Assembly: GCF_028368975.1 (NCBI RefSeq)
Contig: NZ_JAQNDM010000001.1
Coordinates: 372,001 to 436,000 of the forward strand
From: Stigmatella ashevillena
GTDB taxonomy: Bacteria; Myxococcota; Myxococcia; Myxococcales; Myxococcaceae
Length of the DNA stretch: 64,000 nt
Direction of reading: 5' to 3'
Below the pieces are notes generated by a model. It had not been told where the DNA came from. It made no database searches and saw only the letters and a list, made by a program, of their open reading frames with translations. A program made the translations under genes and the position numbers. Within the stretch, counting starts at the first letter, position 1, and each line of letters starts with the position of its first letter. Of this stretch, positions 50,335 through 55,985 are shown piece by piece.

Positions 50335-50365
50335 GACGCGGGAAGTGCTGGCGCTGACGCCGCTC

Positions 50366-51067
50366 TCAGCCACTGCAAGCCATCAGTAATTCGTGGCCAG
50401 CCGGGAATCGCATGGCCACCTCTCCCGGAGACCGGGGCTGGAACGTAATGCCCGTGAAGTCCGGGACCGCCGTCCGGGCCCCGGACTCCAACAGCTCCTC
50501 GCCGCCGATTCCCACGCAGTAGGCCCCCGCCCCAGCGGCAGACCGCACGCCGCTGAGGGAGTCCTCGTAGACGATGGTTTCCGAGGCAGGGAGGCCCAGC
50601 CGCGATGCCGCCAACAGGTAGGGCTCGGGGTCCGGCTTCCCCCGGCTGACGTCGTCACGGTTGACAATCACCGCGAAGCGTCCCGCCAGCCCAAGGCTTT
50701 GGAGGACAAACTCGATCCGGACCTGCCAACCGCTCGTCACCAGTCCGAAGCGGATCCGGTATTCGGCCAGGGACTGGATGTGCTTCTCCACGCCGGCAAT
50801 CGATGCGCAGGGGGTGCGCTCCTCGATGCTTTCCACCCTGTTGCGGATCTCCTGCTTCTCCTCTGCCGAGGCATTGGGAAAGAGCGCGTTCACCGTGTAG
50901 CTGCCCGGACGCCCATGAACGAGCTCGTGCATCTCCTGGTCGCTGATGTGGCGCCCATGGCTCAGGGCCACCTTCCTCCAGGAATGTTCAACGACAGGCT
51001 TCGAGTGGATGAGCACTCCGTCCATGTCAAAGAGGACGGCGGAGAACCGGGAACGGGCTGCACTCAT
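50366..51067 (-). CDS. HAD-superfamily phosphatase (beta-phosphoglucomutase-like)
   Basis: ATG at 51067 gives 233 residues. HAD motifs are in order: VLFDMDGVLIHS (nucleophile Asp and acid Asp), FGLVTSGW (Thr/Ser), GKPDPEPYLLAASRLG (Lys), VYEDSLSGVRSA (metal-binding acids). The alpha-helical cap contains HELVHGRPGSYTV. It dephosphorylates a sugar phosphate or related metabolite. The longer frame to 51436 is not part of it: that stretch is the 3' end of a LysR remnant. Confidence 0.88.
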   Translation of the reverse strand: MSAARSRFSAVLFDMDGVLIHSKPVVEHSWRKVALSHGRHISDQEMHELVHGRPGSYTVNALFPNASAEEKQEIRNRVESIEERTPCASIAGVEKHIQSLAEYRIRFGLVTSGWQVRIEFVLQSLGLAGRFAVIVNRDDVSRGKPDPEPYLLAASRLGLPASETIVYEDSLSGVRSAAGAGAYCVGIGGEELLESGARTAVPDFTGITFQPRSPGEVAMRFPAGHELLMACSG

Positions 51068-51249
51068 GTGGGGGAAAATCCCTGAGGGGTTTCGAGAGTC
51101 CGGCTTGGGTGCAGGCACTCGCCGTCCCCTTGGACGGGACCGGTGGAAAGAGCATACCTCACTCGAGCTTCGGCGCTTCTTGGGGCGCCTTGGGTTCATT
51201 GGGCTGGACTCCACGTGGGACACGCCAGGCCGTATGGGGGCTCGAACCT

Positions 51250-51650
51250 CCTGCGCGCTGTCAATGAGCGCTCGCATGACGGGCGCGCCTGAATCCTTGG
51301 CGCGCCACGTCACGAACTCGCTCAGGTCGATGTGGAGTTCCTCGACCGGACGCCACGTCATCGAGATCTGCGAAGCCATCTCTGAAATGTTCTCCCCGAC
51401 GAAGGTGACCGCGTCGCCGATCGCGACCAGCGCCATGTTCGTGCGCCGCCGTGATGAGGTCCGCGTGGAGCCCGTCGCTCGGCGCGTAGGCGCCGTAGCC
51501 GAAGGCGATCGTCCCTTGCCGCAGCGCCGTCCACTGCTCGACGCTGCTCATCGGGACGAGCTGAAGGCCGACGCGGGGCGTTCTCCTCCGGAACGCCGCG
51601 ACGCCGACGGGCTGCACTCGCGCGTGCGGAAGCTTGCGTTCGGCCCCGAG
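51250..51650 (-). pseudogene. LysR-family regulator remnant with internal deletion
   Basis: Two frame-shifted fragments of a LysR substrate-binding domain run leftward. The first (about 51650-51460) reads FRRRTPRVGLQLVPMSSVEQ and then ALRQGTIAFGYGAYAPSDG; the second (51436-51250) reads ALVAIGDAVTFVGENISEMA and ends FVTWRAKDSGAPVMRALIDS. Aligned with the intact LysR at 56.1-57.0 kb, the second should follow the first after roughly 90 residues; instead they are nearly adjacent and in different frames. The N-terminal helix-turn-helix is absent. It is a decayed gene. Confidence 0.7.
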
Positions 51651-51790
51651 GAGCAGTTCTCCGCCGTCGCCGTTCGAACTCAAGGACTACGAAGGTCTGG
51701 CGAGACGGTCATGAACTCCACTGACGAGACATCTAGCCAGACCGACGCGATCGATAAGCTGAAGAGCGTCATGGATGACCAGGCTTTGCC

Positions 51791-52177
51791 TCAGCCTAGG
51801 ATGAGGCGGAAGACGTGGTTGTAGACAAAAAAGCCTCCGGGCTGACCAGGAATCGGCTGAAGGCCGAAGACCTCGGAGAAAAGCATCGGCTTGTCGAAGG
51901 CGTTATCGATGGCAAGGGTGCCGGTAACGGAGACCAGGACGCCTCCTCCAGAAGAAGGCTGCGCGTCGGTCGTGCTCACTCTGTGCTTGACGTTGGCCAA
52001 CTCAGGCTTGGTCAAGTTGGCCAGGATATTCTGCTGGCCTTGAATCTGATTTCCTTCCCAGGTGAGCATGGATTCGGGCCGGTAGAGCGCAGAGAGGTTG
52101 CTGCGCGAGGCGATACCGCCATCGAAGGTGGTGTAGTAATGGGAAGCGAACGCATTGGCTATGCCATTGAAGTCCAT
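51791..52177 (-). CDS. Eukaryote-type nuclear transport factor 2 (NTF2) homologue
   Basis: ATG at 52177 (or 52186) gives 128 residues, matching NTF2 in length (about 125). Along the whole protein it reads like eukaryotic NTF2: MDFNGIANAF, HYYTTFDGG, LSALYRPESMLTWEGNQIQG, VKHRVSTTDAQPSSGGG, VSVTGTLAID, LFSEVFGLQP and FFVYNHVFRLILG. The Glu of TWEG and an Asp in TLAID correspond to residues that bind RanGDP in animal NTF2. Bacterial SnoaL-like proteins share the cone fold but not this sequence. I counted 174 G/C in 300 bases of the gene (58%), lower than the core genes here. Its role in a bacterium is unknown; transfer from a eukaryote is inferred. Confidence 0.75.
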   Translation of the reverse strand: MDFNGIANAFASHYYTTFDGGIASRSNLSALYRPESMLTWEGNQIQGQQNILANLTKPELANVKHRVSTTDAQPSSGGGVLVSVTGTLAIDNAFDKPMLFSEVFGLQPIPGQPGGFFVYNHVFRLILG

Positions 52178-52832
52178 GTGCGGCATATATCAGCAGGGGC
52201 ATGGGTAGAGGAGGCCCGGCCTCTCTCGTTACGTGTTCCCCCGTCAACTTGTCCACACTCGTAAGGGCTCGGATCAAGCTGTTGCTCATCCCGGAGCGGG
52301 CTCGAAACCCGCCGCCGCAGGTATTTCAAACCCTGCGGCTGCTCCCCACAAATGTGCCCGATAAGTTGCCGCCTCTGAGGTGTTCGTGGCCGCACTCAAG
52401 GACCTGGAGCGACAGTTTGCGCGAGAGGCACGAAGCCCCGCCGAACGGCTGCACCTGAAGCGTCTGACAATGCTCAAGCGCGCCACGTCGAACACGGGGA
52501 GCTGGGCCCACATCGAGGCGGGCCTGCTCCCGCGTGGCGTCCGAGACACGCGGCCTAACGCTCCCACCCGCCCGTCAAGGTGTCCGTGCCCGGCAGGCGC
52601 CTGCGCGCGGCCCTGGAATGTGAATCCATTCACAGCAAGGGGTTGTGAACCCATTCACAGCAACGCCGCTCAAACTCACATTTTCGCCCCAATTGAGAAA
52701 AACACCCTGGCTTCATTTTTATCGTAATAGGGCTCGTCAATATCAGACGTATTCGCTATAAAGCCTTCAACCGGGCAATGCGTCCCAATGCCCTTTTCCC
52801 GGTCAATCCCCCAAAAAAAACAAGGTGGAACC
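52178..52832. other. Spacer with no convincing gene
   Basis: 655 bp between the NTF2-like gene and the subtilisin-like protease. Short open frames occur on both strands, one rightward from 52380 with a Lys/Arg/Leu-rich segment (LKDLERQFAREARSPAERL), but none has a clear start or known motif. Two 16-bp palindromes lie at 52619-52659, and the last 150 bp is AT-rich. It looks like an insertion scar plus the protease control region. Confidence 0.5.
52619..52659. promoter_or_regulatory. Two 16-bp palindromes upstream of the protease
   Basis: TGTGAATCCATTCACA (52619-52634) is a perfect dyad with 7-bp arms and a CC centre. TGTGAACCCATTCACA (52644-52659) is the same with one mismatch. They start 25 bp apart and each is followed by GCAA. 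Two copies of one dyad suggest a dimeric regulator. The first start codon of the protease is 174 bp downstream. The regulator is unknown. Confidence 0.55.

Positions 52833-55985
<3,153 letters not shown>

Follow-up and report, generated by a model that had tools for sequence, protein, structure and literature searches.

Eukaryotic-type NTF2 genes in Stigmatella ashevillena and streptomycetes point to a probable old transfer and possible reuse in bacteria

The 64,000-nt stretch of Stigmatella ashevillena DNA analysed here (hereafter the window) carries a gene whose predicted product resembles nuclear transport factor 2 (NTF2), a protein best known for carrying RanGDP into the nucleus. The gene belongs to a clade of bacterial NTF2 copies, has myxobacterial DNA on both sides, and shares an upstream box with its relatives. 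We favour, with a probability of about 0.6, the explanation that a eukaryotic NTF2 was acquired long ago, spread among bacteria, and was reused as a putative cytosolic binding protein. The gene would have passed from a eukaryote to bacteria in the distant past, then diversified in the Streptomycetaceae, mostly in Kitasatospora-type genomes, and finally reached a few myxobacteria along with its short promoter. This suggests that a nuclear-transport gene can pass from a eukaryote to bacteria and then between bacterial phyla, and cells that lack a nucleus but retain an NTF2 provide a natural experiment on the abilities of the protein once its transport job is gone. Searches of an open-licence library gave no report of NTF2 in Streptomyces, Kitasatospora, or myxobacteria, and bacterial NTF2 homologues in a wide sense are already in print in PMC2837639.

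The earlier note had placed a protein of 128 residues with the motifs LTWEG, TTDAQPSS, LFSEVF, and NHVFRL at positions 51791-52177, all of which is correct, the coding strand being the minus strand (Table 1). The plus-strand frame across these positions is interrupted by a stop codon, and the last residues of the protein read NHVFRLILG. The Pfam NTF2 profile (PF02136) is matched over its full length (positions 1-116 of 116) with 85 bits at a cut-off of 21 (E 7e-24). Since NCBIfam has no model matching the window protein, bacterial NTF2s are easily overlooked. The best phmmer matches in PDB are the NTF2s of Cryptosporidium (3.5e-24), yeast (1.1e-23), and rat (about 1e-12), and Rasputin, p15, and G3BP are much weaker. 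A profile built from ten bacterial copies retrieves the same eukaryotic families among PDB chains, its sole other row being a peptidylprolyl isomerase at E 1.6. The window protein shares 47% identity with yeast NTF2, 45% with that of Cryptosporidium, and 36% with that of rat; for comparison, yeast NTF2 is 46% identical to the rat and 49% identical to the Cryptosporidium protein. Judged from these sequence comparisons, the likeness of the window protein to NTF2 is well beyond chance.

Table 1. Coordinates of the NTF2 gene and surrounding features in the window.
Feature	Position	Strand	Details
NTF2 gene	51791-52177	minus	128 codons plus stop; ATG 52177-52175, stop 51793-51791
Promoter-like stretch TGA-TATATG-CCGCAC	52178-52192	minus	-10-like box 52184-52189, 6 bases before ATG
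Short ORF in the "decayed regulator" stretch	51261-51683	minus	Pfam: nothing at E 1e-4
HAD-type hydrolase ORF	50366-51436	minus	Pfam HAD_2 2e-28
Subtilase (S8) with bacterial Ig domains	52788-55985	plus	Pfam Peptidase_S8 4.7e-42

The AlphaFold2 model of the window protein, computed with an alignment of 14 bacterial sequences, has a pLDDT of 92.9 and a pTM of 0.87 and superimposes on yeast NTF2 with Z 20.3 and an rmsd of 1.4 across 120 residues at 47% identity. In addition to this predicted fold (Z about 20), the protein has its length, the full PF02136 profile, an identity of 36%-47%, and the acidic Ran-contact residues in common with the eukaryotic NTF2s of yeast (1gy7), Cryptosporidium (1zo2), and rat (1gy6). 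In contrast to these, the window host has no nucleus and no recognised Ran-like GTPase, the bacterial ATG is preceded by a -10-like box, and the bacterial proteins have loop insertions after D19, near D91, and near P110, with rat L59 and F61 replaced by P and L. The NTF2-like domains of p15/NXT1 and G3BP/Rasputin share the fold, at an identity to the window protein of 26%-29% for p15 and 25% for G3BP, and p15 stands apart at 100/99 in the tree described below. Of the 50 structural matches listed, the bacterial proteins, among them SnoaL, SgcJ, the C-domain of the orange carotenoid protein, and Caulobacter CC_2572, also have this fold (Z 15-17), but their identity to the window protein is 10%-19%. 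At E values up to 1, the window protein matches the NTF2 and NXF_NTF2 profiles only and leaves the SnoaL profiles unmatched; the SnoaL_2 profile is touched weakly by three of the 14 family members (best 1.6e-5, 25.9 bits at a cut-off of 27). The window protein is therefore, as far as its sequence can tell, an NTF2 and no SnoaL-type cousin. This bears out the view of the earlier note that the gene is of the eukaryotic NTF2 type and unlike SnoaL or ketosteroid isomerase (KSI) proteins, and its closest relatives are the bacterial NTF2 clade and eukaryotic NTF2, not ordinary SnoaL-like proteins. The NTF2-domain proteins of giant viruses, which share the fold and are presumably eukaryotic in origin, reach at most 23% identity among 12 matches in the viral fold library with E up to 0.001.

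The G+C content of the gene was reported as 58% over 300 bases and amounts to 57.0%, compared to 66.7% for the entire window. Its GC3 of 0.73 is the lowest in the range of 0.73-0.94 (median 0.87) spanned by 25 window ORFs of more than 900 bases chosen by a simple gene caller, and is thus low, not alien. Both flanks, named in the earlier note as the place to check for contamination, are myxobacterial by DNA match: positions 50365-51068 are 90%-94% identical to three same-genus genomes, and the DNA from 52730 on is 76%-78% identical to the same three. The NTF2 segment itself has a match in one genome only (G103) among the seven searched. Lying within 0.8 kb of myxobacterial DNA on either side, the segment is part of the bacterial chromosome and is not eukaryotic contamination. 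An ordinary SnoaL/KSI-type protein, or a contaminated or chimeric assembly, would account for a gene G+C below that of the window and for the weak SnoaL_2 matches, but this can be practically dismissed in view of the unmatched SnoaL profiles, the low identity of the bacterial structural matches listed, the myxobacterial flanks, and the presence of the same family in other bacterial genomes.

The stretch next to the gene had been described as a decayed regulator. Decay is plausible, as pieces of the area around 51261-51683 match other places in same-genus genomes at the DNA level, but with no Pfam match for the short ORF the regulator is unproven. A clean empty site is not readable in the same-genus genomes because the HAD stretch and the protease are about 0.7 Mb apart in G005. 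Rfam finds nothing in window positions 51000-53000. A piece of about 92 bases at 52377-52468 recurs at several places in four genomes (G001, G002, G004, and G005) with 72%-92% identity; neither the piece itself in Rfam nor its overlying ORF in Pfam has a match.

One genome per GTDB species was scanned, which yielded ten loci with 58%-77% identity to the window protein, eight of them in Streptomyces (two in one genome), one in Kitasatospora, and one in Archangium lansinium. The genus of the closest match includes Kitasatospora phosalacinea, which makes it probable that this is Kitasatospora as GTDB defines it. Among these Kitasatospora-type genomes, 11 of 70 have a match. One of these is a fragment; the other ten extend over most of the length, are free of stops, and have 37%-77% identity to the window protein or to its clade. 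Elsewhere, matches are rare: four of 392 genomes in the genus of Streptomyces uncialis (one full, three fragments), one of 396 in a spread Actinomycetota sample, which is the search centre itself, and two of 195 in the myxobacterial phylum, S. ashevillena included. None of the six same-genus genomes has an NTF2 match. No relative of the window protein was found in plasmids and phages, and peptide-pattern scans of IMG/VR, which see close relatives only, or two patterns with alignment, gave no carrier. The window genome probably got its NTF2 gene from another bacterium. Of the transfer from a eukaryote proposed in the earlier note, the eukaryotic origin is the explanation that identities, trees, and distribution favour, whereas a transfer into Stigmatella alone is at odds with a bacterial clade centred on Kitasatospora/Streptomyces and with the shared promoter box.

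The family also has divergent members, namely L036, with 37% identity to the window protein, and L065, with 37% identity to L036. L036 was considered as a bridge to ordinary bacterial proteins and rejected, as its matches in 394 family genomes (11 with a match) are the NTF2 clade, L065, and a second NTF2-domain gene of Streptomyces sp. CB02056 (G196). This divergent second gene (L039, G196:C1:875086-875295, minus strand) and the main NTF2 gene are about 2 kb apart on opposite strands. The S. ashevillena genome likewise has a second copy (C2:9421578-9421960) with 74%-75% identity and a one-base frame break in a G run, a break that could mark a pseudogene or stem from a sequencing error. The copy in Archangium, in an open frame with another start, is missing its first 16 codons, leaving the window copy as the only intact one of the three myxobacterial copies found. 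Broken or partial copies are also present in four sampled actinobacterial genomes, and decay of bacterial NTF2 copies is common.

For the phylogenetic analysis, the bacterial copies were combined with three eukaryotic NTF2s (yeast, Cryptosporidium, and rat, each as the aligned stretch from the PDB match) and fly p15; the second S. ashevillena copy was included with its two frames joined and an X at the break, which was removed for the residue alignment. With p15 as outgroup and without the long rows G3BP and L036, NTF2 and the bacteria group together at 100/99, the bacteria alone form a group at 100/99, and the NTF2s of rat, then yeast, then Cryptosporidium split off before the bacteria (91/69, 84/66). 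When G3BP and L036 are included, NTF2 and the bacteria group at 85/68 and yeast splits first (80/83); with G3BP and without L036 and L012, the value for NTF2 and the bacteria is 82/44. AU tests do not reject a eukaryotic NTF2 clade beside the bacteria (p 0.26 with the p15 outgroup, p 0.25 with G3BP), so nesting in eukaryotic NTF2, and hence the direction of transfer, is not proven. The trees place the bacterial copies with NTF2 rather than p15 and perhaps inside eukaryotic NTF2, and a eukaryotic origin of bacterial NTF2 appears very likely.

The opposite direction, in which an old bacterial family gave rise to eukaryotic NTF2, could draw on the unrooted data, which allow a place beside all eukaryotic NTF2, and on a proposal in PMC2837639 that bacterial homologues of NTF2 in a wide sense were its source. 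We nevertheless consider it quite improbable, given the single match (the centre itself) in the Actinomycetota sample and the two myxobacterial genomes. Furthermore, a root on the bacteria would derive p15 from within NTF2, considering the 100/99 grouping of NTF2 with the bacteria, which counts against a bacterial beginning. Within the bacterial clade, AU tests gave p 0.41 for one clade of the three myxobacterial copies and p 0.14 for one clade of the streptomycete copies. The loop after D19 is one residue longer in both copies of the window genome, L012, L004-L007, L034, and L035 than in L008, L010, L011, and L013. This loop would fit receipt of the gene by myxobacteria from within streptomycete diversity.

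The -10-like box before the bacterial NTF2 genes is new here. TANNNT is found 6 or 7 bases before the ATG in all 11 actinobacterial copies whose 5' end is readable (L004-L008, L010, L011, L013, and L034-L036), most commonly as TACGTT followed by CCG. Neither of the two copies in the window genome has a strict TANNNT; they carry TATATG and TACAGA at the corresponding position, behind the same TGA. When the copies are aligned on the TA, 13 of 13 share the G that lies two bases upstream of the box. As controls, TANNNT was counted at 14 of 156 called gene starts, some NTF2 genes included, and at 17 of 1300 ATGs in eight loci, eight of these 17 being NTF2 starts. The string TANGTTCC, followed after 2-6 bases by a start codon, gave nine non-repeat finds in 385 kb of loci, many of which overlap and most of which were picked for holding an NTF2 gene, and all nine, the one in L065 among them, stand before genes of the NTF2 family. 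At the DNA level, the window gene and its relatives cease to be similar 1-27 bases 5' of the start codon. A generic sigma-70 promoter and terminator scan of positions 51500-52900 found none, in keeping with a box that lacks a -35 match. In Actinobacteria, TANNNT about 12 bp before the start is reported to mark leaderless genes, which make up about a fifth of genes (PMC3160421). The box suggests that the window gene may be a leaderless bacterial gene, with transcription probably beginning at the ATG, and that the NTF2 gene and its promoter box are likely to travel together.

Just upstream of the -10-like box, L010, L034, and L065 contain the palindrome GTGATCAC, possibly a regulator site. No widely shared neighbour gene or conserved operon was found among the NTF2 loci scanned, and no delivery gene was recognised among the neighbours scanned. 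Some loci share single neighbours, and the remaining neighbours vary from locus to locus. A GNAT-type ORF lies 3' of the NTF2 gene in L004-L006 (Pfam checked in L004), and a small ORF with a signal-peptide-like start is found shortly upstream of NTF2 in both L007 (5374-5706, no Pfam match) and L008 (5498-5848, also in its duplicate L009). DUF397 genes are located about 1.2-4.3 kb upstream of NTF2 in L006 and L008, next to a DUF5753 helix-turn-helix regulator in L008 and a similar ORF in L006.

The main-clade copies of the Streptomycetaceae have a GC1 of 0.57-0.71, a GC2 of 0.38-0.49, and a GC3 of 0.90-0.99, a pattern as expected in a high-GC genome for a protein that would be under selection. 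The window copy was compared with the second copy of its genome with the codons joined and the frame-break junction omitted; the two have 24, 17, and 45 differences at first, second, and third codon positions, corresponding to an NG86 dS of 0.73 and dN of 0.175. The NG86 dN/dS of the window gene against L004-L007 is near 0.19; across all 66 pairs, the ratio has its median at 0.63 and goes up to 1.94. We attribute the high values to synonymous sites that are nearly fixed at G or C; at a GC3 near 1, NG86 dN/dS is unreliable and gives no support for selection. These ratios are among the observations that would accord with a gene that spreads and decays without lasting function, a capture of eukaryotic DNA equipped with a functioning promoter, whose losses are balanced by new transfers. 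The broken copies in four actinobacterial genomes, the frameshifted second copy, and the truncated Archangium copy point the same way, as do the plasmid, phage, and IMG/VR searches, in which no carrier was found. Still, we regard a functionless gene as improbable, since ten of the 11 Kitasatospora-type matches cover most of the length and are free of stops at 37%-77% identity, and GC1 and GC2 remain low while GC3 is near 1.

In rat NTF2, nine residues line the pocket for Ran Phe72, and the acidic residues E42, D92, and D94 contact Ran, as described in PMC3549806. The bacterial copies have the acidic residues E41 (13/13), D91 (12/13), and D95 (13/13, a count that depends on gap placement, the same column being Q in yeast and a gap in Cryptosporidium). 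At seven of the nine Phe72-pocket positions, they resemble the eukaryotic proteins; the exceptions are rat L59, which is P in 12 of 13 copies and A in one, and rat F61, which is L in all 13. By the offset of the alignments to NTF2, the window protein has H at rat H66 and the aromatic F3 where rat has W7. The twelve Ran-site positions are more conserved than random position sets (1% of draws as low, with burial uncontrolled), and folding alone may account for the conserved pocket residues. A search of seven carrier genomes recognised no Ran-like small GTPase: PF00071 gave 11 weak matches (23.5-39.9 bits) in the seven genomes, within open frames of 640-1117 codons, and the same search also gives matches in 13 of 14 control prokaryotes. 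The missing Ran bears on the function of the bacterial proteins, not on their kinship to NTF2.

Inspection of the window protein shows no signal peptide, its modelled first helix begins at residue 3, and we infer from the missing signal peptide that it is cytosolic. The protein would form an NTF2-type homodimer, whose pocket with its acidic rim (E41, D91, D95) might hold a loop of a putative bacterial protein partner. This role of the pocket is proposed by analogy to the way NTF2 holds switch II of RanGDP and is the least certain step of the favoured explanation. Changes of L59 to P and F61 to L would fit a changed partner, and we give internal reuse with a bacterial partner an even chance. 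The possible reuse mentioned in the earlier note is likely, whereas the secretion toward eukaryotes that it also raised has no positive evidence, with neither a signal peptide nor a conserved neighbour.

A related possibility is that NTF2, released by lysis or another route, interferes with nuclear transport in fungi, amoebae, or other eukaryotes by binding their RanGDP or FG nucleoporins. If true, a nuclear-transport factor would have been made a tool of the conflict between bacteria and eukaryotes in soil. The acidic rim and most pocket residues are kept, H stands at rat H66 and an aromatic residue (F3) at rat W7, the carriers are soil bacteria, and the distribution of the gene is accessory and patchy, all of which would suit such an effector. 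However, neither a signal peptide nor, among the neighbours scanned, a conserved neighbour or delivery gene was found, and the changes at rat L59 and F61 affect residues lining the Ran Phe72 pocket, so that we consider an effector role unlikely and prefer reuse inside the bacterial cell.

Another protein of eukaryotic type is encoded close to an NTF2 gene in a streptomycete. The translationally controlled tumour protein (TCTP) family is known from eukaryotes, and a full TCTP gene (L008:1513-2028, minus strand, same in L009; Pfam TCTP 1.2e-46, PDB TCTP 1.1e-31) lies about 4 kb from NTF2. In tblastn, relatives are found on six Streptomyces plasmid records, five at 65%-66% and one at 33% identity. 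Streptomycetes may hold a wider set of eukaryotic genes. Transfers from eukaryotes into Streptomyces have been reported for the galactose oxidase-like gene glxA (PMC3543389) and for a Hymenoptera-type antimicrobial peptide (PMC6406012). These two have other functions, whereas NTF2 is a nuclear-transport protein and has reached myxobacteria too.
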